NCBI GenBank assembly: GCA_029565735.1
Contig: JAKQNO010000038.1
Coordinates: 1 to 36,643 of the forward strand
DNA: 36,643 bases
Direction: 5' to 3'
Source: a bacterium
GTDB lineage: Bacteria > Oederibacteriota > PGYV01
The notes beneath the pieces are model-generated. The model did not search any database, was not told the DNA's origin, and saw only the letters and a list, made by a program, of their open reading frames with translations. Below, in pieces: positions 1 to 21,148 of the stretch (the stretch's first letter is position 1; every line of letters begins with the position of its first letter). The position numbers were made by a program, and so were the translations under genes.

Positions 1-3000
1 TAACCTGCCAATATTTTATCTGTTTCTACAGTTACGGGCGGTGAAACCTTATCTATAACAAAATATCCTTTTCCTTCACCCGTATTTCCAAGGTAATCTA
101 TACCTTTAACAAGGACTTCCGCCGTGCCTGACACAGTTCCGGGTACGCGTTCATCCACATCAAAAGAAGCCATGTATTCGTTTACAGGAGCGTACATAGT
201 CCACGACAAGGATTTCATAGAATCTGTGATAGTTACAGGAACACCATTTTGCAATAATTCAGCCGTTATGGTTGTGCCTGTTGCCTGGCTGCCATGAATT
301 TGGACATTGGAAAGTTTATACTTTTGTCCCGCCATATCTATCGTCTTGCCATTCCACCAGTTAACAGGCGGGAATGTTAATTGTTCCCCTGGAGCAGTGG
401 TTTGAAGAATAAGATTTCTTTTTACATCAGAAACATTAACATTAAGTATTTTTTTATTAAATAATTTATCACCGAATGACCAAGTGGTATTCTTAGTTGC
501 AAAAGTATGCATTTGTTTTTCATTAAACGTATTACCTGCCGTATCAACAACCGTTATCCACATCTTTGAAATCGGAGGTGCTTCAGTATAATCTGTATAT
601 ACACCAGCTCTATTAATCTTATACCCTTTATCATATATTAATTGCCCATTTTCAATTACATTTGACAGCCATATCGTTTTATTTGATATCAAATCTTTAT
701 TAATCACTCCGCCATTTGGAAGTAATTCAGGATTATCTAATGTTCCTAATATCAACTTATACCCATCCTCCAGCATTCCTGCCGTAGTTGTCGGGGACAG
801 CGCTTCCACAAACACATTTGCCGTGCCGTTCATATACTCTTTTTCCTGTGCTGTAAAAGTAAGCCACACAGGCGCGGGTGCGGGATTAATAAACGGCAGG
901 TTCACCCATCCGTTCAAAGCCCCGTTAAGCGGTTTTGACGGCCTTGCGTATATTGACACAACACTGCCAAGCCCTGCAGGGTTAGGCATTGCGGAAACTT
1001 CAAACAACGGCGGATTGGCGTTTGGTATAAGCTGAACCGTAGAGAATGACGTCATTTCCGCGGTTATTACTTTAGTATCAGTATCTATCATTGACGGAAC
1101 AAGTTTTAATTCTTCAACCCCGCTGTCTGTTAAGTGCAGTTTATAAAGGCTAAGCGAAGATTCAGGGAAATCGCCAAGCTGACGTTTATCATACAGCATT
1201 GTTAAAATGGCGGGCTTTGGTATGTTGTTCTTTGCGTCCATTTTAAAATCATCCTGACGCAGCCTGCCTGCTTCCGCAACACCCCTGTCCGATGCTTTAA
1301 AGTCATAAATCAACGCGGCAGGCACAGCCCCGCTTTCAAGCGCCGGAACTTCTTCGCGTTTTAACGGGGTTATTGTAATTGTCTTGTCTTTTCTTAACGA
1401 ATCTTTTGGGAAAGATAAAAACACCTGTTCATAAGCGTCTGCCGCAAATCCGCCGTTTGGCGTTATCACATGGCCAACTTCCCCGCCTGTCTGCGCTTTA
1501 TATGCGCTGCCATCCTTATTTATAACCGTCAGCAGTACATCATAAGCGCCAATTTTATCTTTTACAGGTATATACCCAAGCACGCCGGCCCTTGGCGTTA
1601 AATTTTCATACGACAAATGCCAAGAATCAGAATCATTACGCTTTTTGTAAGCTATCGTATAGTATTTGGCGGTTGTGGTATTAATATCCCCCGTTACTTT
1701 TATATACGTTTTGCTTTCATACGGTTCATAAGACGGGTCTCTTAAAACCGCATTAACCTTGTCAATTTCATATTCGTCATAGGTCATACCCGTGCCAAAC
1801 GATTCCGCGTCACCGAATGTCAGGCCGGTATCCCCTGCCGCATTCCCGTCAATTTCTTTTTTAAGTACTATATCTTCATGAAGAACGTCAGTATCAGGAT
1901 AATACGGCCCTTTTACCGTCCATACCGAAGAGTGAGGAACTTTGCCAGGGCCCAAATACAGGTTATAACCCATAAAATCATTTACTTTTTTATTCTCATC
2001 ATATGAAGGAAATGGTTTTACAAAAAGCTTCCCATAGTTATCATCTAAATCACTAAATATGTTAATACTCATACCCGTGTTACTATTATGTTCATATAAA
2101 GCAACATTATCCATAACTCTTGAGAGTTCTGACATTTCCCATGTTGAAGTAACAGCTTTTGTTTGAATTTCCGTTTGAAAATTCAACTTTCCATCAGCAA
2201 AGGTTATATTTTTAATATCAACACTGGCAAATTCATTTAAAACAACTGCTGCAGTAACAGTCGTCGGTACAGCTTTGTCACCCTTATAATCTGCAAACTC
2301 TATATATCCATCTCTGGTTTCATTTCGCCCATATTCAATTCCGTCATAATTTATTGTTTTATTCTCCGTCAACGAATTGTACATATGACACTCATAGGGC
2401 AAAGTAACCGTGCTGCCATATCCCAGTCCTATGCTGTATGTATTTCCGGCTTTAAGACAGTAAGTCTTTATATCATCCGTTTCAAAAACTTTTAAATCCG
2501 AACCCTGAAAATCCACATTTGCGCTACTTGTTACACAAAGCGAATCAAAAGGAGTATAACTAATTGTATCCATTCCGGATCTTGTTTGACCTATAACCTG
2601 GGTCAACATTGAAGGTTTATCGGCACCATAAACCACAAAAGTATTTATGCTGTTTCCGGTTGCGTTACCTTTAAAAATTCTTAACTTATAGGGAGCGCCA
2701 TTCTCATAAAGATTTACATATCTGCCGCCGCTACCCGTTCTGGAACTTATTGTTGTTCCGGCCTTATCAATTATCACGGCAAATGAGTTATAATAATACT
2801 TATCAAACTCCGCTCCAAAATAAACCCTTTCGTATCCATCCGCGTTATAGTCCGTTAAAGGTATAGCCGTTTCACTTACATACTTATAATTACCATATTC
2901 CGCCGGAGCTTCAAGATAAACAGACTTTTTGTATCTTTCAAAAATCTCATTAATTATAATGTTTATAACAAAATTCATACCCACATTGGATGTCGATTTT

Positions 3001-6000
3001 TTCATCGTAAGTCTGTACTCCACATCGGGTAAACACACATATGTGAATTGTGACATGTTTTTCTTATCCCAGACACCTGTATTCACATTGTACTCTTCAA
3101 GCGTTATATTAACCCAAGCTTGCGCAAAAACATCCATCGACAATGCAATCATTGTCTTTTGCCCGAACGAGAAACGTTCCACATATTCATTCGTAGTATT
3201 TATATTTATCGTTTTAACATTAGTTGTATTCAAAATTAAATCTTCTTTAACCTGAGCGGTATAATTTACCGATACAGAATTGTTCAGCCTGTTGGTAATA
3301 GTCCCCAGCTGTATCCCGTTTGTTATATCCATGCCATTTTTCGAGCACATTTCACAAGCATTTTCAGTTTCAAGGAAATATTTACCATTTTTATATATAT
3401 TTCCACCCCAGCCGGTTATCAATCCCGTAAATAACAAAGTACTGCCGTTTACTTCCGGCATCAAATCCAATGTTGTCCCGGGATACCTATAAAAAGGCGA
3501 TGATAAAGTTCCGTGTTCAGGCTTATTATTCCAATCAGATGAATTACGAGGTATTAAATTTATGTCAAAAGGCTGCACGCTTTCTCTGTGAGCAAATGAT
3601 ACTGCATTCAAATATCTCGTACCTTCTAATATAGGTAACATAACAGGATTATTTTGTATTTGCTTATATCTAAACGTAATACTTGTTGTAGAGGGTTGCC
3701 CGCAATTCCACGGTTTACTTGACCATGCATAAATGCGAACTTTATCCCCTCTGTTTAACTGTATGTTGGTCCATCCCTTATCTCTGTTCCAAGAATCTTT
3801 TTTTATATCATTTACCCACAGTTCCCAATTATGATTCTCATCATAACACCCTTCTACATTTGTCGTGTATCTTGAAGTTTGATTGTACGGAATGTAAAAA
3901 GTTCTGCTGTCACTGGTTCCACCTCCTTCGGTAGTTATATTTAAATGTTCTTCAACTTCATATTCGTCAAACCATTGTTCCGTCGCGTACCCTGTTATCG
4001 TAACTCCAAACGGAACAGGAACGTCATACTTACCGTGCCCTGACGCTTTAAAATCAAAATACGGCCTTGGAACCGCGTTTACTTCTATCTCGGCAGTGTA
4101 TGTAACAGGTGCGGCAAGAATTACAGGAATTCTTAGATTTTTCAAAATAGTAGTGTTTTTAATTAAATACAACTGCGCGATGTATTCGCCATCAACTAAA
4201 GCGTTGCCGCTATTTCCTTTACCATCCCATTTAAATACATGATTAATTCCCGATTTTTTATTAGCATCGTTAAACGTAAAGTTTTTTACCGCATTCGTAT
4301 TCTGATTCGTTATCCTTAACGAACCGTCAGTTACATCTTTATTAAAACTAAAACTTATATCCGTGCTGTCTGTTCCGTTGTTTATTACAACACCCGGAAC
4401 AACTTCAAACTTTGCGGCAAAACCTATATTTACAGTCCTAACCTCAGACTCAACCGTATTACCCGCATTGTCTTTTGCAATAACCTTAAAACTTACCGTG
4501 TCGCACTGAATTTCTGCGGCCTTAAACGTCTTAAACACACCATCATTTACAGGTGTGTCGCTTTTTCTTACGCTTTCCCACTCCCCGTTGTCCTGTTTCA
4601 TCAGCAATTCGTAATACGCAAGTTTTACAGGAATGGTCTGCCCTTCTGAATCCGCCACAAACGCGCTTCCTTTTACGTCAAATTCTTCTGTAAGAGTTGA
4701 ACCGGCATCGGGTGCTGTAATTTCAGCCTGTACCATATCCACAGCCACTTTTCTTATCTTACCTTCCGCGTATCTGTCAGCCGCAGTTACTGTAACGCCA
4801 TAATAACCGTCAGCCGCGCCATTTGCGGGCCAGTATGCGTTATATTTTACGCCTTCTCCCGGCTCGCCATACAGCGATTCCACAACATTGCCCGTTTCAT
4901 CCGTAATAGTAAACACAACATCGCCCGGTGATTCAAGGTTCACGTTTGCGGTTATTGTTACCCCATAAGAGAACGGATTCGGCTGTGCCTTTAAATTATA
5001 AATACCTTTTGGATTGTCAATGGTAATGCCGCTTACTACCGCCTTATCCATTGCCTTTACAGTACCGTCCATATCTTCGCTTAATATAAACAGCGCAAGG
5101 TCATAAACCCCGTTATATACGGACGTTATGTCCCAGTCAGCAAGCTCGCCGTCTATTATCTGCCTGTTCATGGCAGTTTTTGTAACAGCCGTGCCCGCGC
5201 TTAATAAAGGCAGGTCTATCATTGTAAATCCTTCTGTTATTTCTGCGTCTGTATCCTCTGATACAAATCCCGCCGCCCTGTAACCAACCATATAACCCTT
5301 ATAAACTTCCCCGCCTGTGGCTGTACCTGCTATTAAAACGTTTTCCCCGTCATCCGCCGCGTTTAAACCAAGCCCGTCCTGCGCGGCTTTTCCCGCTATC
5401 TGCGTTATAGACGGCACTATACGCCCTTTTACTATCATGCAGGTGCCGGTTGTGCTGTTTCCAAATACATCCATTACCGTTATATACGCCTTATAAACCC
5501 CGTCTTCCACAAATCCCGTTGACCCGTCTTCCCTTTGCCCTATTCCGTCCCATGTTATACCGTCAATGGGCGCATCCAGTATTCTGCGATAAGAAGCGGT
5601 ATCTTCCGTACTTTCCGCAAAATTATAGAACCAGTATTTGTTTCCCCTGTATTCGTCTATATCCCCGTATTTGCCCGCGTATTTAAGTTCTATTGCTTCT
5701 TTTTTATCTATGCCGTTATATAAATTTCTGACAACCCTGTCACCCTTAAAGGTCTTAATATCCACATTCGCGTAAACGTATTTTGAAGTGGCGGCCATAG
5801 GCTTAAAGTAAATGGCGGTTGTTGTTCTGCCTTTTGATTCCTCTTCCGGATTGAATATAAACGGCGACGCGTAAGGCGGTGTGCGCAATATCGGCGCCTT
5901 GTCTGCCGGAAGTACAAAATACTTGCCCGAAGCGTGCGCCACGCGCGTCATTACGGTGTATGTTCCTATCGGGTGCTGTGTGCCTATTAACAGCTCCCTT

Positions 6001-9000
6001 GCAGTTTTTGTCACATAAGAACCGTCGCCATACTTAACCGCATCCGCTTCCCTGTAAATGCCAAGATTCTCTTCTATTATATCCCTTGCCTTTTCTTTCT
6101 GGGCCGCATAATCAGCATCATTGGGATTAAGCCCGAATATAGCGTCAAAATTCGGTATATCAAGGTCAGAATCCGTGTATTTTATGGTTATCACAAGTTC
6201 AGACCCCGCGTTTATCCTGCTTTCATCCAGCGCAGGAAAAAGTCCGTATTTCGGGGTAAACATCCCATATAAACCGTTCATAAGCGGAAGTTTGGGTCCT
6301 GTATTTTCGGAGTACACGTTTACGTATTCTGTCTGCTTAACAGCGCTTTCCGGCACCAATAACTGAAACTTATAATATGGGTCAGCAACAATAGTCGCGG
6401 CTGTGTTAGAGACATCAATAGGCGTGCCGATGGTAAACAAGGCATTATCAAGTTCTTTTCTGTCATATTTTAAATTATCATCTGTTATTGTGGTTCTTAT
6501 CCTGTAAGGCCCGTATAATCTATTGCTCCATACATCCCATGCTGTCATTATCTGAAAAAGCGCCCCCTGCACAGGGGAATTGGACATTGTAATGCCATTA
6601 TTTAAAAAACATGTATCCCAACTAAATCCCTGGCTTGTCGTCAAATTATAATGCGACCCGCAATATTCAAGGCGCCATTCCTTAAACCTAAGCGCGTCTG
6701 CTCCGCCCATTACCGTTATAAAAGATTTTCCTGTGTACATGCTTTTTAACTTAAACCTGAACCTTCCGTTGTCAGGAACCCTGCCGTCTTTTACGTTTGC
6801 GGTATAGGTATTGCCGTCTTCATCCGCAAGCATAAGGTCAGGATTTGTTGTGTCGTCCGGGTAATATATCTTTAATGTTTTGCCGGCCGCCGCAGTTGCG
6901 GTAAATATGTCAGACATCGGCTCTTTGCCCGGGTCAACACCTATAAAATTAAGAATGCCTCCGCCCTGCGATACCACTTTATCTCCCGCGCCGAACAGCC
7001 CGTTGTCATAAGTGCGCCATATAAACGAACTTACAGGAACCGCCCTGCTACCTTCCTGCGGGAACGAAGTGCCGACAAGATAGGAAATAAAAGACGTTTC
7101 AACCCTGTGCCCGCCCGCGTTTACTGTCCATACATTTATTGTGTTTTTTCCCGCGTGCGGCAGCGGAACATCAAGCGCCCAGTCCGCCTTGCCCCTTTTG
7201 CCGTCTTCCGTGGTTACCAGTGTTGTATCCAGTTTTAAAACTGTTGTTACAATAGGCCCGTTGTCAGCCTGAGCGTATATCTGTAAAAACTGCGGAAGAT
7301 AATCGCTTGCCCACCCTTCCACGTGTACAAATGCTTTATTGGTTGTAACACCCACTATCCAGCCGTTATAGCTTTCAGCTGGTTTATCAGCCGTAGACAG
7401 GTATGGATAAAACACGCCAACTTCACCGGGTTCATCTATTTCAGATAATACCCTTGCAGGGTCTGCCTGCGCGCCTTTACCAAAAGACAAGCTGCTTAAT
7501 ACTTCATTAAACACTTCACCCATAAAAGGCACTGCGTCAAAACTTATAGGCAGATCTATCGGCAGTTTTGGCATCCCGCTTAAATCTATTTCACTGAAAG
7601 CAGCTTTACCTTTTGCTTCCAGGTCTTTTACTATCCCCGTGCTTATTCCAAGCTGGCTGTCCAAAGTTCCTATTAAATTACCCTCTGTGGAATTAAGTAC
7701 GCTTATTACTATAGGCCCTATGCTTGTAATGCTATTTACTATTGGTTCAGGAATATTTTTTAAAATATTAAGCACTTCAGATATAACAGTCAAAGAAGCA
7801 CTTTTAACTGTCAAATTGGCGCCCTTCTTGCCTGCAACCCCGCTTATTTTTACTTTATCAATATTGGCAAGCGCTTTTTCCACATCCGCTGTCCTGTTTG
7901 CCACATCTTTAAGCCAGCTGCTGTCTTCGCCTACGTCCTCTTTACTTTTGTAACTTTCAGTAAACTCCGCAACTTTTGAAGCAACTTCCCACCAGTCAAC
8001 TACGTTTATATTAAACCCTTCAAATGGCATATCCGCCGCGTCACACCCATATACCTTTTTATATACCTGCCTTGGATTTAACGAATCACCAAATCCCGGA
8101 AATTTATCACCGCCCGGAAGCCCTTTTACAAGTTCTTCCATTGCCGCAGTGTTATTTTCAAGAAAATTTTCTACAGCCGAAAAAGCAAGCGCCTTTACCG
8201 CGCTTTCACCCCAGCTTCTTGCGTAACCCATTGCGCCGTTGGCAAGGTATGCTGCGTAAACAGGGTTTCCAATTGCCATCTGAACCGCAGATACAAGCGC
8301 TATCCCAATACTTGCCTTATTTGCCACATCCTGCGCCTGCATAATCATATTTACGGCGTCCATATCCACTCCGCCAAGCTGCGCGCCTACAAGGCTTATT
8401 GACGCTATGCTTGACATACTGTTTGCGTTAGCCGTGTCAGACATATAATCCAACAGCGCATTGGCACCCATACCATGTCCGGATGCTTTTAAATTCCCAC
8501 CATGCGCATTAGGTTTATCTGCGTTAACTTTTAAATTGTTTTGTATATCATCAAATAAACTACCTACCATATCACACGGAGCTCCAATACCCGCAAGCTG
8601 TCCTGCAATACCGGAAATATCTACGCCCGTATCTATCTGTGGAATTATTATTTGCGGCCCTTTTATTCCCCTAAATGGGTTGTCAATTGAACCAAGCTTT
8701 GTCTGCAGAGCCCCCGCCGCGAAAGCCCATCCATTTTTTATTCCCTGTCCAACATCCGGCAATAACACAACACCAAATAAAGACCCGTCAAATCCCCACC
8801 GCGCCCCGTTTAAATCAGGCCGCGGTATGTTTATATCCAACCCCTGTATATTCATATCTATATTTAAATCAAGCCCGGGAAAACTGCCTTTAACTTCTTC
8901 CCCTGTCTGCACAACTTCCACTTCTTTATTCTTATACGCTGTTCCGTTATCTTCTTCTGATGCTTCTTCGTAATATACAAGGCTAAATACATTCGTCTCA

Positions 9001-11582
9001 TCCGATCCAAGAACGCTATCTTCATAACCAGTATAAGATGAATCGGTTGTTTGTTTTATCGCGGCAGACACAGGCAATTGATCGTTTTTCTTGAAATTAT
9101 ATCTGTCCGTAACATCAACCGCGATAACTACAGGTATCGTACCTGTTCCGGACTTATTGCCAAGCAATGCCTTTAATTGAACAGAAGAAATTTTCGCCTC
9201 TGTAACATAGCTGTATCCATCTAACTGTTTTATCTCTTTAATAATTATTTGCTGGCTGTTTTCTTTTGATTTTTCAGGTTTCAAAGTTATTATTTCCGTT
9301 CCCGTTTCCGCATCTGCCCCTAAAGCCTTTATGGTTGTAAGTTTGTCTGTAAAATATAATCTTAAAGTAGCAGATTCGTTAAAATTCACATCTTTTGCTT
9401 TATTTATAACTATTTCTCTTTCCACACCATTGTTGCCGTCTTTACTTAATCTACATTTACCCCATTGTAAAAGGTACTTGGTTGAATCTTTTTGGGTTAT
9501 TTCTATCTTATTCATTAAAACCGGTGCCCAGTGGTAAAATCTTTTTAGTATATTTTCCGGGCTGAATTCCTGGGTGCTCATGTACATCGCAGCCCACGCG
9601 CTCATACCACACTTCGAACCGGATTTTAAGCCCACAGGAACCGCTACATCCGCTTCGTCACACATCGTTTCCCTAAGATAAGTTCTTGTCTCGCCTAAAA
9701 CATTCAACCCGCTTTGAATTATGACATTTTTTGCATTTTGTCCTTCCGCATAACTGAAAATATTTGTTAAAACATTTGGTATTATGGCATTGTCTGTTGA
9801 TCGTTTTTTTGTAAAATCCTCTTTACCAAATAACACAGAATCAAACCAAAATGCTTTTATATAGTTTTTCTCGTACTCAATACCAGCCTCATTGGTTTTT
9901 ACAGTTACAGTAATACCTGCGTATGCACGATCAATTGCTTTTTTCAAATCACTTGAAACTCCTGAATAATCCTTGTACTGTATAAAATGCTTTTGCTTGT
10001 CAGAATAACCGTTTACCAAGACATCAAATTCAGAGTTACTGCCGGACTCTCTCAACAAAAGCGTATATGCTGCAATCCCGATAGCCTGAAATCCATTGTC
10101 ATATTTTTTATCTTTAAAATCCGCCGATCCAACAGCCGCATACATTACCCCTTTAATATAATCGTGAATATTGACACTTTTGATTTCAGGAACAGGTGTT
10201 TCTGTCGCAACCGGTGTCGCCACAGGCGTCATATCATCAACTGGTTCGGTAGGCTGTTCTGTAGGTTCAGATTTTAAATCTTTTACTATTACAGTATCAA
10301 AATGTGCAAAAGGATTCGGAGTTCCGCCCGGAGTGGGCGTAGGCATTGCAGTCGTCCCGCTGCGATATAAAACATAGTCATCCGGTATGATTAAAAATTC
10401 TCTTTTAACTAATGCCGTTGAATATCCATTAACATCCGTGACATTAACAGCAAAAGCATGCTTCCCCGGAGGTAATTTCAAATCATCAAGTTTTTGATAA
10501 TAGTAAAATCTATCATGTCCCGGAGTCGAACTCACAGGTTCAATTTTATTCTGGTCCCCTGATAATGATGTAGTACAATAACTAATTGGGTCTAAATTTG
10601 GAATACCGCCCAAATTAAAGGTCCCATAATTTCCACCATCAGGCATTGGCGTTGGATTGGGCGGAAATGATATACGGTTTTCTTCTTTGTCACTACCAAA
10701 CTTATTTACATAAAATCCGACCCTGTTCAAATCCAGTCCGGAATTGCTACCCAGACTTGAATCAATAAGAACTTTAAAGGGATAGGGTTTAAGTAATTCT
10801 TCTTTAGTAAAACGATGTAAATCAGGCGGATTTTCTATTGTTATTAAAGGTAAACCGTCAGGGCTATGTTTTAAATATCTTAACGGGTTGTCTTTTCCCT
10901 CGTTGACACCAAGATGTAAGTGCTCCGGATACGTAGTACCACTGGGACTTGACCCGGAATTCCCCGACGGAGCAAAAGGCTTCTGCAATTCCACAGATGA
11001 TTGCGTTTCTGTTCGATTTGTAGCGTCTGACATTAGGAATTTATTATTGATTTTTATATATCTACCACTATCTTCTTCAGTGCAAAATACTTTTACGGCA
11101 AAATTGCCATTCCATCGAATTATAACAATCCGTTTTTTAATATTATTGGTATTACTTGGTAATATCAATTCCGCCTCTGTTAATTCCCACTCTCTATTAT
11201 CAACAGAAGAACAATTACCATCAGAACACGAGTATGCAGGCAAAGTATTTGAGTTACCATTAAACGTATGCAAATAGTGCCAAGTTCTATCACTATTATT
11301 TGCATTAATTACTATATTCCAACCACTAAGATTCTTGTATTCAATATTTGTTATAACACCATTCTCAACAGGCAACAAAGGCGTGTTTGCCGGCATACTG
11401 TAATCAATTCCTCTATGAAACCAAGTACCTACAACTCTCGGCCCGAAATCTGATGATATCATGTGTGTCCAAGGCGTATTAAAACACCCATTACAGTCAT
11501 CTTTCGAATAAGTATTAACACTTATTAGCAAAATAAAAACAATACAAAGAATATTCTTTAATAACAACTTTATATCACACAT
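1..11582 (-). CDS. Giant secreted M23 peptidase / SpoIID-domain multidomain protein (3' end outside window)
   Basis: One uninterrupted frame runs from ATG at 11582 past position 1, at least 3,860 codons; frame checks on many lines found no stop. AAGG lies 9 nt before the ATG. Residues 1-26 form a signal peptide. Residues about 40-230 are an M23/LytM zinc peptidase domain: FGPR near residue 46, HRGID (H56, D60) and HLH (H221, H223) are the metal and catalytic motifs. Pro/Thr-rich spacers lie at about 310-320 and 410-465. Residues about 470-685 resemble SpoIID/LytB (YIKGV start, CGMSAWAA at 658, ILKRFYHWAP end). Two FlgD-type Ig domains lie at about 2205-2280 and 2405-2480; most of the rest reads as beta-sandwich-like sequence. 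Both N-terminal domain types act on peptidoglycan in known families, so a cell-wall remodelling or surface role is inferred. The C-terminus, and any anchor or sorting signal, is not visible. It starts 6 nt after the upstream gene's stop, so the two are probably co-translated. Confidence 0.9.
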   Translation of the reverse strand, partial: MCDIKLLLKNILCIVFILLISVNTYSKDDCNGCFNTPWTHMISSDFGPRVVGTWFHRGIDYSMPANTPLLPVENGVITNIEYKNLSGWNIVINANNSDRTWHYLHTFNGNSNTLPAYSCSDGNCSSVDNREWELTEAELILPSNTNNIKKRIVIIRWNGNFAVKVFCTEEDSGRYIKINNKFLMSDATNRTETQSSVELQKPFAPSGNSGSSPSGTTYPEHLHLGVNEGKDNPLRYLKHSPDGLPLITIENPPDLHRFTKEELLKPYPFKVLIDSSLGSNSGLDLNRVGFYVNKFGSDKEENRISFPPNPTPMPDGGNYGTFNLGGIPNLDPISYCTTSLSGDQNKIEPVSSTPGHDRFYYYQKLDDLKLPPGKHAFAVNVTDVNGYSTALVKREFLIIPDDYVLYRSGTTAMPTPTPGGTPNPFAHFDTVIVKDLKSEPTEQPTEPVDDMTPVATPVATETPVPEIKSVNIHDYIKGVMYAAVGSADFKDKKYDNGFQAIGIAAYTLLLRESGSNSEFDVLVNGYSDKQKHFIQYKDYSGVSSDLKKAIDRAYAGITVTVKTNEAGIEYEKNYIKAFWFDSVLFGKEDFTKKRSTDNAIIPNVLTNIFSYAEGQNAKNVIIQSGLNVLGETRTYLRETMCDEADVAVPVGLKSGSKCGMSAWAAMYMSTQEFSPENILKRFYHWAPVLMNKIEITQKDSTKYLLQWGKCRLSKDGNNGVEREIVINKAKDVNFNESATLRLYFTDKLTTIKALGADAETGTEIITLKPEKSKENSQQIIIKEIKQLDGYSYVTEAKISSVQLKALLGNKSGTGTIPVVIAVDVTDRYNFKKNDQLPVSAAIKQTTDSSYTGYEDSVLGSDETNVFSLVYYEEASEEDNGTAYKNKEVEVVQTGEEVKGSFPGLDLNIDMNIQGLDINIPRPDLNGARWGFDGSLFGVVLLPDVGQGIKNGWAFAAGALQTKLGSIDNPFRGIKGPQIIIPQIDTGVDISGIAGQLAGIGAPCDMVGSLFDDIQNNLKVNADKPNAHGGNLKASGHGMGANALLDYMSDTANANSMSSIASISLVGAQLGGVDMDAVNMIMQAQDVANKASIGIALVSAVQMAIGNPVYAAYLANGAMGYARSWGESAVKALAFSAVENFLENNTAAMEELVKGLPGGDKFPGFGDSLNPRQVYKKVYGCDAADMPFEGFNINVVDWWEVASKVAEFTESYKSKEDVGEDSSWLKDVANRTADVEKALANIDKVKISGVAGKKGANLTVKSASLTVISEVLNILKNIPEPIVNSITSIGPIVISVLNSTEGNLIGTLDSQLGISTGIVKDLEAKGKAAFSEIDLSGMPKLPIDLPISFDAVPFMGEVFNEVLSSLSFGKGAQADPARVLSEIDEPGEVGVFYPYLSTADKPAESYNGWIVGVTTNKAFVHVEGWASDYLPQFLQIYAQADNGPIVTTVLKLDTTLVTTEDGKRGKADWALDVPLPHAGKNTINVWTVNAGGHRVETSFISYLVGTSFPQEGSRAVPVSSFIWRTYDNGLFGAGDKVVSQGGGILNFIGVDPGKEPMSDIFTATAAAGKTLKIYYPDDTTNPDLMLADEDGNTYTANVKDGRVPDNGRFRFKLKSMYTGKSFITVMGGADALRFKEWRLEYCGSHYNLTTSQGFSWDTCFLNNGITMSNSPVQGALFQIMTAWDVWSNRLYGPYRIRTTITDDNLKYDRKELDNALFTIGTPIDVSNTAATIVADPYYKFQLLVPESAVKQTEYVNVYSENTGPKLPLMNGLYGMFTPKYGLFPALDESRINAGSELVITIKYTDSDLDIPNFDAIFGLNPNDADYAAQKEKARDIIEENLGIYREADAVKYGDGSYVTKTARELLIGTQHPIGTYTVMTRVAHASGKYFVLPADKAPILRTPPYASPFIFNPEEESKGRTTTAIYFKPMAATSKYVYANVDIKTFKGDRVVRNLYNGIDKKEAIELKYAGKYGDIDEYRGNKYWFYNFAESTEDTASYRRILDAPIDGITWDGIGQREDGSTGFVEDGVYKAYITVMDVFGNSTTGTCMIVKGRIVPSITQIAGKAAQDGLGLNAADDGENVLIAGTATGGEVYKGYMVGYRAAGFVSEDTDAEITEGFTMIDLPLLSAGTAVTKTAMNRQIIDGELADWDITSVYNGVYDLALFILSEDMDGTVKAMDKAVVSGITIDNPKGIYNLKAQPNPFSYGVTITANVNLESPGDVVFTITDETGNVVESLYGEPGEGVKYNAYWPANGAADGYYGVTVTAADRYAEGKIRKVAVDMVQAEITAPDAGSTLTEEFDVKGSAFVADSEGQTIPVKLAYYELLMKQDNGEWESVRKSDTPVNDGVFKTFKAAEIQCDTVSFKVIAKDNAGNTVESEVRTVNIGFAAKFEVVPGVVINNGTDSTDISFSFNKDVTDGSLRITNQNTNAVKNFTFNDANKKSGINHVFKWDGKGNSGNALVDGEYIAQLYLIKNTTILKNLRIPVILAAPVTYTAEIEVNAVPRPYFDFKASGHGKYDVPVPFGVTITGYATEQWFDEYEVEEHLNITTEGGGTSDSRTFYIPYNQTSRYTTNVEGCYDENHNWELWVNDIKKDSWNRDKGWTNIQLNRGDKVRIYAWSSKPWNCGQPSTTSITFRYKQIQNNPVMLPILEGTRYLNAVSFAHRESVQPFDINLIPRNSSDWNNKPEHGTLSSPFYRYPGTTLDLMPEVNGSTLLFTGLITGWGGNIYKNGKYFLETENACEMCSKNGMDITNGIQLGTITNRLNNSVSVNYTAQVKEDLILNTTNVKTININTTNEYVERFSFGQKTMIALSMDVFAQAWVNITLEEYNVNTGVWDKKNMSQFTYVCLPDVEYRLTMKKSTSNVGMNFVINIIINEIFERYKKSVYLEAPAEYGNYKYVSETAIPLTDYNADGYERVYFGAEFDKYYYNSFAVIIDKAGTTISSRTGSGGRYVNLYENGAPYKLRIFKGNATGNSINTFVVYGADKPSMLTQVIGQTRSGMDTISYTPFDSLCVTSSANVDFQGSDLKVFETDDIKTYCLKAGNTYSIGLGYGSTVTLPYECHMYNSLTENKTINYDGIEYGRNETRDGYIEFADYKGDKAVPTTVTAAVVLNEFASVDIKNITFADGKLNFQTEIQTKAVTSTWEMSELSRVMDNVALYEHNSNTGMSINIFSDLDDNYGKLFVKPFPSYDENKKVNDFMGYNLYLGPGKVPHSSVWTVKGPYYPDTDVLHEDIVLKKEIDGNAAGDTGLTFGDAESFGTGMTYDEYEIDKVNAVLRDPSYEPYESKTYIKVTGDINTTTAKYYTIAYKKRNDSDSWHLSYENLTPRAGVLGYIPVKDKIGAYDVLLTVINKDGSAYKAQTGGEVGHVITPNGGFAADAYEQVFLSFPKDSLRKDKTITITPLKREEVPALESGAVPAALIYDFKASDRGVAEAGRLRQDDFKMDAKNNIPKPAILTMLYDKRQLGDFPESSLSLYKLHLTDSGVEELKLVPSMIDTDTKVITAEMTSFSTVQLIPNANPPLFEVSAMPNPAGLGSVVSIYARPSKPLNGALNGWVNLPFINPAPAPVWLTFTAQEKEYMNGTANVFVEALSPTTTAGMLEDGYKLILGTLDNPELLPNGGVINKDLISNKTIWLSNVIENGQLIYDKGYKINRAGVYTDYTEAPPISKMWITVVDTAGNTFNEKQMHTFATKNTTWSFGDKLFNKKILNVNVSDVKRNLILQTTAPGEQLTFPPVNWWNGKTIDMAGQKYKLSNVQIHGSQATGTTITAELLQNGVPVTITDSMKSLSWTMYAPVNEYMASFDVDERVPGTVSGTAEVLVKGIDYLGNTGEGKGYFVIDKVSPPVTVETDKILAG

Positions 11583-11588
11583 ATTATT

Positions 11589-12446
11589 TTACCTTTTTTC
11601 ATTTAAATCAATTTTTTTAGTTTTGCTTTTGAAGTACAAGTTAATTATGCCGTTATCCGAGATGCTATCAATCGCCCACTTTTCATCTACATCCCAACTT
11701 TTTCCATTTTCCAGATCAAAAAAAACAACGGAACTTTTTTTACCACGATATTCAATTCCAAGATATCTGCCGTTTGGCGAAATTTGATATCTGTTTATTA
11801 TCTTATCCGCTCTATCATCACTATTATCCGGATAACAAAGAATTTCTTTACCTGAAGAATCATATACATAAATAGCAGCGTTTGATTCATATTCATCATT
11901 ATCTCCTACTAAAAATACTATAAAACCATTATTCGCAACTTCTAATTTCCTGCCTTTATCACTTCCTAAAACTCTATTTGCTCCAATTTCTTTTTTCCAT
12001 TTCTTTTCTCCATTTTCATCTAAACGTTCAACTTCCAATACATTATCATCTTCTATATTGTAAGAAAGTTTATGCTTCGCGATTACCGCACCGCTTCCAT
12101 CTTTAAAAACATCTCCGGTAACATTTTCGATAACATTAACTTCTTCAACTGCACCATTTTCACTTTTCAACTTTCTTTTCCCTAAAGAAATATGACCCAA
12201 CTTAATACTTTTAATTTTATTACCTTTTTTGTCTTCAAAATAGATTTCTCTTACATCATCTTTCCCCGCAATTCCCACTCTGTTATGTTTTTTTTCTTTA
12301 TCTACAATTACACTTTTTGCAGTTTGAGTAACATGTTCCTGACTCTTATACTCCTCATTCGCAGTCTGTGTTACGCCGTTTTTACCCTGTGCATAAACAA
12401 ATACCGCAAACAAAATAACCGCAGAAGTCATTAAAGTTTTCTTCAT
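11589..12446 (-). CDS. Secreted protein of unknown function, possible beta-propeller-like repeats
   Basis: A 285-residue protein with a clear signal peptide (MKK start, hydrophobic run, cleavage probably after VYAQ). An AGGAGGG ribosome site sits just upstream. I do not recognise the family. Residues about 150-285 contain short strand-like units of the type found in propellers, such as AAIYVYDSSGKEIL and YQISPNGRYLGIEYRGK, where 'SPNGRYL' resembles WD40/TolB-type blades. Residues 30-120 are rich in Lys and Glu and also strand-like. It probably acts in the periplasm or at the surface. Its stop is 6 nt before the giant M23/SpoIID gene, which suggests co-expression and perhaps a shared task, but the sequence does not show what that task is. 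Confidence 0.75.
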   Translation of the reverse strand: MKKTLMTSAVILFAVFVYAQGKNGVTQTANEEYKSQEHVTQTAKSVIVDKEKKHNRVGIAGKDDVREIYFEDKKGNKIKSIKLGHISLGKRKLKSENGAVEEVNVIENVTGDVFKDGSGAVIAKHKLSYNIEDDNVLEVERLDENGEKKWKKEIGANRVLGSDKGRKLEVANNGFIVFLVGDNDEYESNAAIYVYDSSGKEILCYPDNSDDRADKIINRYQISPNGRYLGIEYRGKKSSVVFFDLENGKSWDVDEKWAIDSISDNGIINLYFKSKTKKIDLNEKR

Positions 12447-12483
12447 AAACCCTCCTATTTTTTAATATTTATTAATCAAATAC

Positions 12484-12627: not shown

Positions 12628-13611
12628 CTATTTTTTTGTCTTTACCCATTCAAACTTCACATCCTCATTAACCTTCACGTTGTTCATTATTATATTGGTC
12701 TTTGTCTTCCCCTGGGGGGATGACATTTCCACTTCTGATTCCACGGGCATTTCAAAACTGCGCGCGGGTGCTTCTTTTACTCCTGGTTTTCTTGTTTCTA
12801 TCCTTTTATTACGTTTAACCTTCATAAACCCAAGCTTTTCCCCTGCTTCGTTATAAAATTCCTGTTCTTCTGTTATCCCGGAATCAAGATTAACCTTTTC
12901 CACCCTTTTGGCTATCATATGCCTTTTTATATTCTCTTTTTCATCCCTTAACTTTTGCAGATACTTCTTCTTTATCTTTCTGTCCTTACCGTTCTTTGCC
13001 GGGGTTTCTTCCGCTATCATGATATTCCTGTCAAATCCCTCTTTCATCAGCGCCATTTTCTTATTTTCATATTCCACAACCGCTTTATTTCCAAAAAACT
13101 CTTTTTTCACCCTTACCTTATAATCAGCGGTTTCAGCTTCTTTTACCCTTAAATCTTTAAAATGTTTGGCGTCAGATGCTTTATTGCCGTCTTTGTCCGC
13201 AAACATTGTATTAAGCGAAGACCCGCCAAAACTTCCCAGCCCCGCGTACTGCGACATAATAGCGTCTTTTTCTTCCGGGCTTAGCGTGAATGTTTTTGTT
13301 GTCCCATTGGCCATTAAGTAAGTAACCGAACCCGCCGCAGTATCCACCAAAAACTGCATCTGCAAAGCTCCTGTGCCGGTTATCATAACTTTACTGTCGC
13401 CGTTTTCATTGGTCTGCATAATATAATCATAAGTAAGTGTTTTCTTGTCCCCGTTAAATTCGGTTTCAGAAGACACAGACGCGGCAAATGTCTGCACGCT
13501 GTCCTGATACCCCTGCTGTGCCGCCGCCACATCCGCAATAGTCAAATCTTCCGCGTATAAAAAAACGGAAAATATAAAAAAAGACATGAATAGTACCAAA
13601 AGTTTTTTCAT
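12628..13611 (-). CDS. Secreted protein of unknown function, possibly LolA-like fold
   Basis: The start was set at ATG 13611, not the TTG 15 nt upstream, because GGGAGT lies 8 nt before this ATG and MKKLLVLFMSFFIFSVFLYAE is a normal signal peptide. The mature protein (about 305 residues) begins with a helix-like segment (DVAAAQQGYQDSVQTFAAS), followed by strand-like repeats describing a conversion of the type seen in LolA/outer-membrane lipoprotein-sorting proteins. That family link rests on overall pattern only. Residues about 205-300 are very basic and Lys/Arg-rich, which is unusual for a periplasmic carrier. No catalytic motif is evident. It is flanked on both sides by repeat-rich intergenic DNA, so it is probably its own transcription unit. 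Confidence 0.7.
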   Translation of the reverse strand: MKKLLVLFMSFFIFSVFLYAEDLTIADVAAAQQGYQDSVQTFAASVSSETEFNGDKKTLTYDYIMQTNENGDSKVMITGTGALQMQFLVDTAAGSVTYLMANGTTKTFTLSPEEKDAIMSQYAGLGSFGGSSLNTMFADKDGNKASDAKHFKDLRVKEAETADYKVRVKKEFFGNKAVVEYENKKMALMKEGFDRNIMIAEETPAKNGKDRKIKKKYLQKLRDEKENIKRHMIAKRVEKVNLDSGITEEQEFYNEAGEKLGFMKVKRNKRIETRKPGVKEAPARSFEMPVESEVEMSSPQGKTKTNIIMNNVKVNEDVKFEWVKTKK

Positions 13612-13790
13612 ATTTTTTACTCCCAAATTATTTTGTGCGAACTACGGTTTACAAACAGCCCCTCCGCCGTGTACCCTCCGCATAATTTCAATTATTCTAA
13701 ACCATTATCGTATATTGTCAACGGTAAAAAATATTTAACCCATAAACTTTTATCCCATATCCCATAGATAAAAACAGAGGGACGGAAAGT

Positions 13791-13818
13791 TTGGCAGACG
13801 CGGGTCTTTAGCCCGCGG
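13791..13818. repeat. CGCGGG/CCCGCG hairpin element, inverted copy
   Basis: CGCGGG (13799-13804) and CCCGCG (13812-13817) form a 6-bp GC stem around a 7-nt loop. The flank TGGCAGA is close to the reverse complement of the TCTACCA tail seen at 12591 and 14048, so this is the same element in the opposite orientation. Confidence 0.65.
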
Positions 13819-13846
13819 AAGTTTGTGTTATTCATCTAGTTTTGGT

Positions 13847-13964
13847 AGGCGCACCTTTTTAATACCGAGCCTATTATGGAATTGCTCGGTATTATGTGCG
13901 GCAGTTGGTTTTATAGATTGTATTTAAATCAAAAGAACACGCGCCTTAAAAGGCGCGGCTACCA
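13847..13964. repeat. Composite palindromic element, copy 1 (118 bp)
   Basis: The left end is AGGCGCACCTTTTT. A 10-bp perfect stem follows (AATACCGAGC 13861-13870 with GCTCGGTATT 13884-13893), then GTGCGGCAGTTG (13896-13907), an A/T-rich spacer, and an 8-bp stem CGCGCCTT/AAGGCGCG (13940-13957) ending in GCTACCA. The same order and nearly the same spacing occur at 34288-34408. Confidence 0.65.
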
Positions 13965-13980
13965 GAACAAAATCAAAGGC

Positions 13981-14002
13981 GAGGCGCAACATGTTGCGCC
14001 TC
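13981..14002. repeat. Perfect 22-bp palindrome, GAGGCGCAAC half-site
   Basis: GAGGCGCAACA is followed directly by its exact reverse complement and then by TAC. It belongs to the same family as the palindromes at 12484, 29826 and 36578. Confidence 0.75.
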
Positions 14003-14027
14003 TACGATAAAAAATTAAATTCAAAAT

Positions 14028-14053
14028 CCGCGGGCTGAAGACCCGCGTCTACC
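14028..14053. repeat. CGCGGGCTGAAGACCCGCG hairpin with TCTACCA tail
   Basis: CGCGGG (14029-14034) and CCCGCG (14042-14047) enclose CTGAAGA, followed by TCTACCA. It is the compact form of the element that is interrupted at 12530-12597. It lies 29 nt downstream of the LysM/DUF3108 gene stop and could fold in the end of that transcript, but it has no T-run. Confidence 0.65.
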
Positions 14054-14082
14054 AAGGCAATTACAGAAGCAACAACAAAATT

Positions 14083-15195
14083 CTACCTTGCCTGAACTAC
14101 TGTTGCTTTCTGAAGTTCCGCGTAAATCGCGCCGATGGGTATTTTGCTTTCCACTTTCACAGGCACTTTATTCGCGTCATTTGTCATCCAGATTACAACA
14201 TCGCCCGCCTGTTTAAAAATACCTTCAAATTTTAAAAAGGGCTGGACCACAACACAGTCAAAAGTCCCGGCGTCAACAGTCACAGTTTCATATCTTAATT
14301 TTTTTACGACAATCTGATAAGACTTGCCGTCATCCGCGCATACGTCAATATAAACCTCGTCATTTTTCCCGGGCGAAAGGTCAAACGTGCGGTAATAATA
14401 AAGTTCCGACAGGACGTCCTGGGTAAAAGGGACTATTTTATAAGTCTCGCCTGTATGTTTTGTGGCAATTGATTTTTCGTGGTCAAATTCTATGGCAGTG
14501 TTTGCCCTGTATGTGCCTTCTTCAAGCTTTTTGCTGTACTTCCACGAGAACAATCCTACAACATCTATATACGATTCTATCCTGTCGCGGACACGGAAAA
14601 AACTTTCAAAGAACGGCGCTGTCTGAGCAAGCGCGCCAAGTTTGTAAACCTTTCTGCCGTGTATTTCCACCATATTTTCAATTTCCAAAACGCCTATGCC
14701 CGCGGTGACATTAAAATATTTTACCGCGTAAGAAAGTTTCTCACCGACGCCAAAAGCCCTTGTGTTGGAAGATACCCTGTATTCAAAACCGCTTTTTGAC
14801 TTTACATTTGCGGGTATTGACTTTTTAGTTTCCGGCAGGCCTGCGTCTTTAACAGCAGGAATTAAAAGTTTTTTCCCTTCAAAAATTAAGTCCGGATTAT
14901 TAACAGCGTTGGTATCAGCAATTGAAGGATACAGCGCGCCTTTGCCATAATAATTCCTGGATATTTTCCATAAAGAGTCGCCTTTTTGTATTAAATATTC
15001 GCTTAATTTACTTTCTTCAGCGGGCGCTGCTGTTACAACAGTAGGCGAAGGCACGGGCGTTTCTTCAACCTGGTCCCTTATAATTTGTTCTTCATCTGTG
15101 GCTTTTACAACTGATATTTTCTTAACAACAGACGCGCAGGAAACCATAAAAAAGCACGCCGCAGCGGTTAAGAGTATAATTCCGGTTTTTTTCAT
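14083..15195 (-). CDS. Lipoprotein with LysM domain and DUF3108-like C-terminal region
   Basis: I place the start at ATG 15195, preceded by AAGGGG; the frame also opens at a TTG 21 nt upstream, but that would bury the signal peptide. Residues 1-20 form a lipoprotein signal with MVSC (Cys20 lipidated). A Pro/Thr/Ala spacer follows (residues 44-60). Residues about 67-115 are a LysM domain (YLIQKGDSLWKISRNYYG ... NPDLIFEGKKLLIP), which binds peptidoglycan glycans in known proteins. The remaining ~240 residues match the pattern of DUF3108 (VGEKLSYAVKYFNVTAGIGVLEI near its start, DVVIWMTNDANKVPVKVESK near its end), a periplasmic domain of unclear role. It is probably anchored in a membrane with the LysM in contact with the wall. 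It is the last gene of the heptose operon and overlaps the stop region of the glycosyltransferase gene, so its job may concern envelope assembly. Confidence 0.85.
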   Translation of the reverse strand: MKKTGIILLTAAACFFMVSCASVVKKISVVKATDEEQIIRDQVEETPVPSPTVVTAAPAEESKLSEYLIQKGDSLWKISRNYYGKGALYPSIADTNAVNNPDLIFEGKKLLIPAVKDAGLPETKKSIPANVKSKSGFEYRVSSNTRAFGVGEKLSYAVKYFNVTAGIGVLEIENMVEIHGRKVYKLGALAQTAPFFESFFRVRDRIESYIDVVGLFSWKYSKKLEEGTYRANTAIEFDHEKSIATKHTGETYKIVPFTQDVLSELYYYRTFDLSPGKNDEVYIDVCADDGKSYQIVVKKLRYETVTVDAGTFDCVVVQPFLKFEGIFKQAGDVVIWMTNDANKVPVKVESKIPIGAIYAELQKATVVQAR

Positions 15196-15205
15196 CTTCC
15201 CCTTC

Positions 15206-16165
15206 TTATAACTCAAGCAGGCTTTTAATTGCAGCCTTTATTTTATCCATATCCGGCGTTTCCCCGTCCGGATTCAATTCCATTATAACACTTTTATTGC
15301 CCAAAGCGCCCCATCTTACGGCGCTGATGTGGCGTATTTCCTTTGGCGGAAAAAAACTAAACGTTTTAACTTTCTGCGCCGCGGCTATATGCATTGGGCC
15401 TGTGCTGCAGCTTACCACCAGCGATGACATCCCTATTAAAGCTGCAAAATCCCTTACCGCCAGGGATTCATCAAGAACCTTTATCCTTTTATCCGCGGCA
15501 GAACCCGCTGCCGCTTTTGCCATAATCTCTTTTTCTGACGCCGCGCCTGTTATTAACACATCCGCCCCTGTTTCAGCGGCAGTCACAGATGCAATTTCCG
15601 CGTATTTTTCCGGGCTTAAATTCCATGCCGAACCCTTGCTTCCGGGATGCACTATTACAAATCTTTCATTTAACCCAAGTTTTTTGATTATATCAGCGGC
15701 CCTGCTTTTCTCTTCTTCCGTTGGAAAGTAAAAATAACCTGACGCTTTTTTATTGCCAATAAACGGCGCCAGCATAAGGTTGTAATCAGCTTCGTGATTT
15801 TCTGATTTTTTTCTGCTGATGTTAACCCTTTTACTAAAAAACAGCGGAGAATACCACCGCCTTGAAGTCCCGTAAATTTCCCTTATGCCGCATTTTTTCA
15901 GCATGGCGGCAATTTCATAACGCGGATAGGCGCACACAGCCGCGTCAAAACCGCGCTCTTTTACTGACTTCTGAACAAACTTAATATTTTCTTTATTATA
16001 ATAAATTATCCCTTTTACATCAGGATTGTTTTCCAGAAGGGTTCCCGCGTAAAGGCCGGCAAGAACGTAAACTTCATTGCCTGCCAGCGCAAGTTCGTGC
16101 ATTAAAGGAGTAGTCAGTAATAAATCCCCTATCCCGTCCGTTCTGCAAACCAGTACTTTTTTCAT
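15206..16165 (-). CDS. Glycosyltransferase family 9 (heptosyltransferase-like)
   Basis: A 319-residue protein starting at ATG 16165 with GGGG 5 nt upstream (a GTG directly before it is possible). It shows the GT9 two-lobe pattern: an N-terminal RTDGIGDLLLTTPLM loop, then VIVHPGSKGSAWNLSPEKY at about 170-190 (the HPG segment binding the nucleotide in WaaF/WaaC), and SCSTGPMHIAAAQKVKTFSFF near 250-270, which contacts the donor. Family members transfer ADP-heptose to LPS inner core. The gene sits directly behind three ADP-heptose synthesis genes, so a heptosyltransferase role is likely. Whether it is a WaaC, WaaF or WaaQ equivalent cannot be told from the sequence. Confidence 0.9.
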   Translation of the reverse strand: MKKVLVCRTDGIGDLLLTTPLMHELALAGNEVYVLAGLYAGTLLENNPDVKGIIYYNKENIKFVQKSVKERGFDAAVCAYPRYEIAAMLKKCGIREIYGTSRRWYSPLFFSKRVNISRKKSENHEADYNLMLAPFIGNKKASGYFYFPTEEEKSRAADIIKKLGLNERFVIVHPGSKGSAWNLSPEKYAEIASVTAAETGADVLITGAASEKEIMAKAAAGSAADKRIKVLDESLAVRDFAALIGMSSLVVSCSTGPMHIAAAQKVKTFSFFPPKEIRHISAVRWGALGNKSVIMELNPDGETPDMDKIKAAIKSLLEL

Positions 16166-16202
16166 CACAGCCCCATATTCATTTACGGAATCATCCCGGG
16201 CG

Positions 16203-16691
16203 TTATTTCGCGCACCCGTATCTTTCCGTTATTGTCTTTATAATATCCTTTGTGGAATGGTTCTTTTTATCGCCCACTATTGCTATCTTTATCCCCAGTT
16301 CTTTTGCTATTCCTTTTTCCGGAACTGTATCTTTTGTATAATCAGTGCCTTTAGCGTGATAATCAGGTTTGATTATCCTTAAGGTCTTTTCCACGGTCTG
16401 CTCGCCGAATACGGTCACATAATCCACAAATTCAAAAGCGGCCATTAATTCCGCCCTGTCGCGCTGATTCACAAGCGGCCTTCCTTTGCCTTTTAGCTTT
16501 CTTACTGACGCGTCTGAATTTAAGCCCAGCACGAGGATATCGCCCTTTGCCTTTGCGCCTTTTAAAAACCGCACATGGCCCACATGAAGTATGTCAAAAC
16601 AGCCGTTGGCAAAAACCACTTTTTTGCCTTTCTTTTTAAGTTTCGCTGCAACAGCGCCAATTTTTTCCCTTGTCATTATCTTATTTGGCAT
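16203..16691 (-). CDS. rfaE2: D-glycero-beta-D-manno-heptose 1-phosphate adenylyltransferase (RfaE domain II)
   Basis: A 162-residue cytidylyltransferase-fold enzyme. FANGCFDILHVGHVRFL carries the nucleotide-binding HxGH motif (H36-H39), and residues 82-95 and 128-150 contain the typical RPLVNQRDRAELM and late ISTTK-like (NHSTKDII) segments. It joins heptose 1-phosphate to AMP, giving the ADP-heptose used for LPS core. In E. coli this is the C-terminal half of the bifunctional HldE; here it is a separate gene, as in organisms with HldA/HldC. The ATG at 16691 follows GGGAG by 8 nt and overlaps the kinase gene by 11 nt, so the two halves remain translationally linked. Confidence 0.92.
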   Translation of the reverse strand: MPNKIMTREKIGAVAAKLKKKGKKVVFANGCFDILHVGHVRFLKGAKAKGDILVLGLNSDASVRKLKGKGRPLVNQRDRAELMAAFEFVDYVTVFGEQTVEKTLRIIKPDYHAKGTDYTKDTVPEKGIAKELGIKIAIVGDKKNHSTKDIIKTITERYGCAK

Positions 16692-17667
16692 TAGTAAGCT
16701 CCCTTTTTAATTCCGCGGCGGTGATTGTGGCTGTGCCGCGTTTCATAACAACCACGCCGCCTGCCACATTCGCGGTCTTTGCCGCGTCCACAAGAGGCGC
16801 GTTGCACCCAAGTGATAAAGCCACAACCGAAGACACCGTATCCCCTGCGCCGGATACATCAACAATTTCATCCGTGCCGTGCGCCGGAATTGATATGATT
16901 TTACCTTTTTCAAAAATCATCATGCCCTTGCTTCCCCTTGTAATTATCATGCCCTTTGCCTTCATCGCGGAAGCCAGCCTGCGGATGGTCTTTTCAACGC
17001 TTTTGTCGTCATACTTTTCAATTTCAACCGCGGGGCCCGCCTCTGTTTCATTCGGAGTCGCGGCCGCGATATATTTATACTTGCGCAGCGCGTATCTTGA
17101 ATCCACAATAACTTTCGCGCCGGCTTTTGCGGCACCGTTTATGAACTTTATTATTCCGTCGGTTATAACGCCGCCGCCGTAATCCGATACTATTACCGCG
17201 CATACTGACGGCAGGATGCGTTTAAGATTATTTATAACATGCTTTTCCAGCTCTTTGTTTATGCCGGCGTCGCTGTACCTGTCTATCCTTACAACCTGCT
17301 GTTTTACAGTGTGCACGCTTCCTGCCATAACCCTTGCCTTTACAGGAACGGAATAATCGGCGCTTCTGACAATGCCGGATATATCAATCCCTTTTTCTTT
17401 CATAAGGTCCAAAAGTATATCCGAATACCTGTCAGTGCCGGCCACAGAGACAGGCACAGGCACCGCGCCAAGGTCGTGAATGTTCATTACGGGATTCGCG
17501 CCGCCGCCGGCAACGTAATCGCTTTTTGTGTGTTTAAGAATAAGCACCGGAGCTTCCCTTGATATGCGCTCTGTTTCGCCGTAAATATATTCATCAAGGA
17601 TAAAATCCCCAAGCACTAAAACCCGCTTACCGCGGAATTTGTCAACAAGTCCCGTGTATTTTTTCAT
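16681..17667 (-). CDS. rfaE1: D-glycero-beta-D-manno-heptose 7-phosphate kinase (RfaE domain I)
   Basis: A 328-residue PfkB/ribokinase-family kinase. The VLVLGDFILDEYIYGETERIS region near the start and GGGANPVMNIHDLGA (about 53-67) are substrate-binding. The DVSGAGDTVSSVVALSLG motif (about 270-287) holds the anion hole and the catalytic Asp of the GAGD sequence. It phosphorylates heptose 7-phosphate at C1 in ADP-heptose synthesis. It begins by overlapping the GmhB stop (ATGA) and has GGAGG 5 nt upstream. The isomerase GmhA and epimerase HldD that complete the pathway are not in the window and should lie elsewhere. Confidence 0.93.
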   Translation of the reverse strand: MKKYTGLVDKFRGKRVLVLGDFILDEYIYGETERISREAPVLILKHTKSDYVAGGGANPVMNIHDLGAVPVPVSVAGTDRYSDILLDLMKEKGIDISGIVRSADYSVPVKARVMAGSVHTVKQQVVRIDRYSDAGINKELEKHVINNLKRILPSVCAVIVSDYGGGVITDGIIKFINGAAKAGAKVIVDSRYALRKYKYIAAATPNETEAGPAVEIEKYDDKSVEKTIRRLASAMKAKGMIITRGSKGMMIFEKGKIISIPAHGTDEIVDVSGAGDTVSSVVALSLGCNAPLVDAAKTANVAGGVVVMKRGTATITAAELKRELTNAK

Positions 17668-18242
17668 TTTGCCTCCGACTTTAATCCGGCTGTTATCTTT
17701 TTAGCCGCGGAATAAAGGTTTGCCGAAACAATATCCGGCTTAGTTTTTGCGTCTATTTTTCTTTCCTGCTTTTTGCCTTTGCCGGTCAGCACAAGCGCCG
17801 TCTTTGTGCCGGCGTTCTTTCCAAGTTTCACGTCTGTTAATTTATCGCCTATTGACCAGCTTTTTTTCAGGTCAATTTTAAATTTTTTAACGGCCATATC
17901 TATCATGCCGGTTTTGGGTTTGCGGCATTCGCAGTCTTTTTTATATCTTTCAACCGAAGCATCAACATGGTGCGGGCAGTAGTAATACGCGTCTATTTTT
18001 ACGCCCTGCTTTTCAAGCAGGCCGCTCATATACTTATGGGTCGCCTTTACAAAATCCTCGCCGTAAAACCCGCGCGCGACCCCGGACTGATTTGTAAGCA
18101 CAACAAGCTTAAACCCGCTGTCCTGCAGAAGTTTTAAACCTTTAACGCTGTTTTTATAAAAACGGAATTTTTTAAGGTCGCTTAAATAACCCGGATCGTG
18201 AATTATGTTTCCGTCCCTGTCAAGAAAAACCGCTTTGTTCAT
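17664..18242 (-). CDS. gmhB: D-glycero-D-manno-heptose 1,7-bisphosphate 7-phosphatase
   Basis: A HAD-superfamily phosphatase of 192 residues when started at ATG 18242 (GGAG 5 nt upstream); an in-frame GTG two codons earlier is less well placed. FLDRDGNI gives the nucleophile and acid Asp pair (D8, D10). VVLTNQSGVARGFY is the second HAD motif and KPKTGM the Lys motif. The zinc loop typical of GmhB is present as CPHH ... CEC. The enzyme removes the 7-phosphate between the kinase and nucleotidyltransferase steps. It is the first gene of the five-gene envelope operon running down to 14083. Confidence 0.93.
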   Translation of the reverse strand: MNKAVFLDRDGNIIHDPGYLSDLKKFRFYKNSVKGLKLLQDSGFKLVVLTNQSGVARGFYGEDFVKATHKYMSGLLEKQGVKIDAYYYCPHHVDASVERYKKDCECRKPKTGMIDMAVKKFKIDLKKSWSIGDKLTDVKLGKNAGTKTALVLTGKGKKQERKIDAKTKPDIVSANLYSAAKKITAGLKSEAK

Positions 18243-20286: not shown

Positions 20287-20380
20287 ACGTCTCCAATAGG
20301 TAAATTAATATAAAACAAGCAATAATGTTATTATTTTATATGATTTTATGGCTGTAAGCAAGAAATATAAGACCCGAGAA

Positions 20381-20433: not shown

Positions 20434-20447
20434 GTCTGAATTACTTC

Positions 20448-21137: not shown

Positions 21138-21148
21138 TTTTTCACCTC

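Follow-up and report, generated by a model that had tools for sequence, protein, structure and literature searches.

What kind of protein is encoded by the giant open reading frame that fills one end of this locus, and on what might the enzyme at its front act? The DNA analysed here (the window, 36,643 nucleotides), from an uncultured bacterium of candidate phylum FCPU426, is the entire contig C136 of genome G000, an assembly of 163 contigs and 2.47 Mb. On the minus strand, which carries all features of the giant and its operon given below, a frame at 3..11582 starts with ATG and continues for 3,860 codons to the contig end without meeting a stop, leaving its 3′ end incomplete. Its translation begins with a signal peptide recognised by inspection (residues 1-26, MCDIKLLLKNILCIVFILLISVNTYS; 11505..11582), and the giant secreted protein of the original prediction is thus borne out. 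Homologous frames were found in L019, L018, L024 and genome G001, those of L024 (5,100 aa) and G001 (7,010 aa) being complete. The original prediction had allowed for an assembly error that joins separate genes; independent FCPU426 genomes encode relatives arranged in the same way, one of them with the same M23-SpoIID order, and this rules out such a chimera. The contig of a paralogue in the same genome (C54) stops near the site homologous to the window end, residue 3924 of its 3938 aligning with residue 3860, a coincidence that points to a break at a repeat common to both. Elsewhere in the window, 26338-27450 encodes a protein of the RuBisCO large-chain family (Pfam E 4e-33), adjoined by two split transketolase halves (27799-28806 and 28809-29780).

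Directly behind the signal peptide lies an M23 peptidase head with an insert (residues 28-250; 10833..11501). The Pfam M23 model scores the window copy at 21-26 bits against a gathering score of 28.7, and the relative L025 at 33.2 bits, above the cut-off. A profile built from four heads matches ShyA, LytM, lysostaphin and other M23 structures (best E 6e-6, ShyA). H56 and D60 of the HxxxD zinc motif and H221 and H223 of the HxH motif are in place as originally described, and so is the catalytic His, H105. Judged by its sequence, the head is securely a member of the M23 peptidase family; an AlphaFold model (pLDDT 36) was not used. HxxxD, HxH and the catalytic His are common to the window head and ShyA, LytM and lysostaphin, whereas in the window head some 85 extra residues separate the two halves of its M23 motif, and the head fronts a giant modular protein and has a linked partner gene.

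An Ig-like module and a Pro/Thr-rich linker follow (residues 251-460; 10203..10832), recognised by inspection and comparable to a module behind other heads. Behind them lies a SpoIID-like domain (residues 466-691; 9510..10187). Pfam gave no SpoIID match in the window copy, and a PDB profile search with the SpoIID-like alignment gave none either. An AlphaFold model of the region has modest confidence (pLDDT 52); two chains of the SpoIID structure 4rwr were its best PDB matches in Foldseek (E 0.21 and 0.59, probability 0.77 and 0.51) and the only listed matches above probability 0.5. By hhalign, the internal domain matches the genome's own SpoIID proteins at E 8e-4 and the SpoIID-type heads of relatives at E 1.6e-10, and one such head matches 4rwr directly (E 0.003). 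Structure and profile comparison support the predicted SpoIID-like region, with a putative SpoIID fold. It resembles 4rwr in a helical motif at the active-site region and in a C-terminal GM...A..M motif; it differs from SpoIID in lacking the catalytic Glu and the Cys/His motif of two of the genome's own SpoIIDs. In an alignment of seven family sequences of the internal domain (A1), the Glu position holds A, L, L, L, A, M and G, the window having Ala, and Glu is kept in five comparison sequences, namely three ordinary SpoIIDs and two SpoIID-type heads. Because this position is substituted, the internal domain is probably not an active enzyme; most likely it would hold or bind peptidoglycan. The two different wall activities first proposed for the polypeptide are not supported: the Glu is absent from all seven members examined, and on this ground we rejected the idea of a single polypeptide with a pair of working wall enzymes.

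The rest of the giant alternates between conserved and variable stretches. A conserved body (residues 820-2500; 4083..9125) is mostly 82-99% identical in amino acids to the C54 paralogue, and a second conserved region (residues 3200-3860; 3..1985) is 80-99% identical. The middle region between them (residues 2500-3200; 1983..4085) is hypervariable, with about 19-32% amino acid identity among paralogues over most of its length; lying between two near-identical regions, it is a possible receptor-binding part. An FlgD-type Ig domain (residues 2402-2468; 4179..4379; PF13860, E 5.6e-11) and the sub-threshold M23 head are the sole Pfam matches in the giant. Of the thousands of beta-sandwich-like residues once suggested, this domain and further Ig-like repeats seen by inspection account for a part. 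Within the body, 7413..8750 can tentatively be called a lipase-like domain, with Gly in place of the nucleophile Ser (GHGMG at 8460-8480). A PDB profile search with the alignment of this domain gave no match. The homologous position in genome G022 (L066:10396-14082) is an N-terminal lipase-like head with GFSAG, and the window domain is possibly the relic of an older head.

Is the M23 head a fixed part of this protein? A first scan of genome contigs with the plain protein gave no match, and an alignment-based scan found three FCPU426-type loci. Those relatives that bear a name are MAGs, assigned to candidate division FCPU426 (bog_1181) and to SpSt-1175. No member of the family was found outside this phylum, and seven of the 45 phylum genomes encode a body homologous to residues 820-2400. 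On homologous carriers we distinguished five types of N-terminal head: M23, NlpC/P60-like, SpoIID with Glu, lipase-like and subtilase. Wherever the N-terminus is complete, the window included, the enzyme stands directly behind the signal peptide. M23 heads are found in the window, in L023, whose contig ends at the SpoIID-like domain, and in L025, a short protein. The NlpC/P60-like heads (L019, L020, L022 and L024) carry GIDCSGFV with the conserved Cys, and a conserved His; their Pfam NlpC/P60 scores are below the cut-off, and a PDB profile search with the NlpC alignment found no match. Each of the remaining classes is represented by one or two members: SpoIID with Glu in L021 (G001) and, on another giant protein, in L070 (G027); lipase-like with GFSAG in L066; and subtilase in L067 (Pfam E 7e-7). 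In G001 (C86), the SpoIID head (L021 2174-3100) and the 7,010-aa frame (3064 onward) overlap in different frames, either by a real frameshift or by a sequencing error.

The exchange of heads can be seen within the window's own genome. Paralogues there are mostly 82-99% identical in the body and last region and differ in their heads. Against C54, a segment at 9030..12465 is exchanged: its flanks match at 86-89% DNA identity and between them only short patches match, at 70-82%. The SpoIID-like domain of this pair is 34-70% identical. Mosaic paralogues therefore coexist in one genome, and the body is not co-inherited with the head.

The exchanged segment reaches beyond the giant. Upstream lies a partner gene (11589..12446) for a 285-aa protein with a signal peptide, ending 6 bases ahead of the giant's ATG, and before it the first gene of the operon (12628..13626), for a 332-aa secreted protein. 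This first gene is constant and present in eight genomes. Pfam has no family for the window's partner, for the L023 partner or for the constant gene; likeness of the constant gene to LolA and of the L023 partner to HEAT proteins are impressions by eye only. The partner gene of the window contains a 13-base tandem repeat (11977-12015). The type of partner varies with the head. In ten of ten classifiable loci partner type tracks head type: the window-type partner and its close relatives (A7) stand beside an M23 head at three of three loci, and the NHL-type partner (A8), an NHL propeller by PDB profile, beside an NlpC head or its stub at seven of seven. Simple counting gives 1 in 120 for this linkage, with loci that are not fully independent. 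Heads of other types carry other partners. Because partner genes of different types share their start, the block that is exchanged begins within the gene. NlpC-type partners diverge fast: they are 45% identical where the adjoining constant gene is 95% identical. Proteins more distantly related to the window's partner occur on their own (G000:C90, G001:C5 and G018:C146), so the partner fold is used elsewhere too.

Partner and head could be co-inherited neighbours in recombination blocks that form no functional pair. Such mere linkage gains from the sample, about ten classifiable loci with several from one genome, and loses from two observations: one head type keeps one partner type in genomes of different families, and the downstream body does not travel with the head. 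We regard it as highly improbable.

A sister species of the same genus provides the orthologous locus. Contig C15 of G002 is collinear with window 12632-29784 at 80-86% identity, and the match breaks off at 12632, where the constant gene ends. Past this point the window genome has an M23-type pair and G002 an NlpC-type pair, comprising an NHL-type partner of 416 aa and an 80-aa NlpC head stub, followed by a transposase. As the collinear flanks stop where partner and head begin and a different pair stands there, both were replaced together.

At this locus the giant is gone and its partner is not. The partner frame is intact at all four loci with a broken or truncated giant or head (G002:C15, G000:C62, G000:C92 and G003:C63). 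Heads are cut after 80 codons in G002:C15 and after 86 codons in G000:C62, and the interrupting sequences have one element end in common. This end, AAACTGACACCGTGCCTTGACTC, stands behind both head stubs (L126 6490-6620 and L127 6690-6860) and precedes the transposase gene in G002. G000:C92 has a transposase inserted in the SpoIID-like domain of its giant, and in G003:C63 homology to the M23 head is lost after about 92 residues. An intact head with a broken partner was not seen among the loci examined. Retention of the partner after loss of the giant matches the behaviour of an immunity gene; a generally useful protein could behave likewise. Codon-position divergence of the orphan partners cannot date selection, because the divergence may precede the loss of the giant.

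These loci also bear on the proposal that the giants serve the producer's own envelope, remodelling its wall for the passage or anchoring of very large surface proteins, with the partner regulating the enzyme. M23, NlpC/P60 and SpoIID proteins are ordinary house-keeping wall enzymes, the SpoIID-like domain is conserved across the family, and the products of the constant gene and the partner gene are secreted as well, all of which would suit that role. Lipase-like and subtilase heads suit it less, as do paralogues with different heads in one genome and different heads at one orthologous locus; moreover, we found no giant in G002, a genome rated 100% complete. We consider a self-directed role rather unlikely.

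How would such proteins reach the cell surface? In two complete relatives (L024 and L064) the C-terminal end bears CBM_3 together with a T9SS type A sorting domain, each scoring above its curated cut-off. The two complete C-termini of the window's genus, L020 and the 7,010-aa protein of G001, have CBM3-like ends and no T9SS tail. The window's genome encodes 16 T9SS tails above cut-off. SprA-like translocon matches occur in 44 of the 45 phylum genomes; in the window's genome the Pfam SprA_N model gave no match, and an SprA-like protein query found a gene fragment, a 254-codon frame on C80. The same search met a 10,753-codon open frame in another FCPU426 genome (G016:C40, around 167808). At least some giants probably use a type IX-like system to cross the outer membrane; the export route of the window copy, whose 3′ end lies beyond the contig, we infer. 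Directly after the giant of G001 (C86 24330-34906, L021/L027) stand two more very large proteins of 1,550 and 1,860 aa, GH8-like by inspection, with Thr-rich linkers and ends that resemble sorting tails.

CBM3 modules and these GH8-like neighbours also fit attachment to, or degradation of, polysaccharide. The giant might then be a surface adhesin or digestive fibre, in which CBM3 binds plant polysaccharide or microbes, the heads digest food in predation or scavenging and the partner protects during export only. The CBM_3 ends of L020, L024 and L064 and the two large proteins beside the G001 giant speak for this, and yet by itself it leaves the co-exchange of head and partner, and the retention of partners where the giant is lost, without explanation. 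We think it unlikely.

The reading that we prefer, and to which we give an even chance, is a polymorphic-toxin-like system with an N-terminal toxin, an upstream immunity-like gene and a giant stalk linked to type IX secretion. FCPU426 bacteria would express a three-gene operon for the constant secreted protein, the partner and the giant. The giant would be exported by Sec and, in some members, then cross the outer membrane by the type IX-like system. It would form a long stalk, rich in Ig domains and able to bind polysaccharide, whose N-terminus carries an exchangeable enzyme that attacks the envelope. In the window this would be an M23 endopeptidase acting on the envelope of target cells, presumably with an antibacterial function, and the secreted partner would protect the producer from the cognate enzyme; equally, the partner could be a chaperone, an activator or an inhibitor that makes export safe. 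Recombination between constant flanks would swap head and partner together, as in polymorphic toxins with the order reversed. Less likely than not is the fuller picture of mirror-image antibacterial toxins in an uncultured phylum, in which giant polysaccharide-bound T9SS stalks present N-terminal envelope-attacking enzymes, with immunity encoded upstream and SpoIID-like and lipase-like domains persisting as dead relics behind the active head. Among the roles first suggested, a secreted toxin is best supported, specifically as an antibacterial toxin, and the giant could still be a structural wall organiser. The exchangeable heads, the upstream gene that varies with them and the CBM3/T9SS ends of some complete relatives are not visible from the window alone.

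For other phyla, too, giant genes have come up in connection with wall degradation. If the toxin reading is true, giant genes of candidate phyla gain one concrete function, and a poorly known candidate phylum gains a weapon that depends on a link with type IX secretion. Toxin-immunity cassettes could then sit at the front of a protein instead of the back, and the head-partner pairs would form a direct test set, usable in laboratory E. coli, for immunity against wall hydrolases.

In polymorphic toxin systems, the immunity gene as a rule lies downstream of the toxin gene. In FCPU426, by contrast, the linked gene is upstream and the enzyme is N-terminal, right after the signal peptide; the toxin domain of polymorphic toxins is C-terminal (Zhang et al, 2012, PMC3482391). 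Both have a constant carrier, an exchangeable enzyme domain, a variable linked neighbour and mosaic paralogues, and NlpC/P60 is among the toxin domains there (PMC3482391) as among the heads here. The TANFOR polymorphic toxins of Bacteroidetes, with an N-terminal TANFOR domain and a C-terminal toxin, are suspected T9SS substrates (PMC7073777). They are likewise large, with beta-domain repeats and antibacterial domains including wall hydrolases, whereas some FCPU426 members themselves carry a T9SS tail. An NCBIfam scan of the whole window protein gave no TANFOR match (TIGR02542), which rules out membership of the window giant in that family. Searches of the open-access literature turned up nothing closer to this combination, most subscription papers and preprints being outside its scope. 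Systems of this kind are already known (PMC3482391, PMC7073777); in the present case the order is reversed, the carrier is a giant linked to T9SS and the phylum is a different one.
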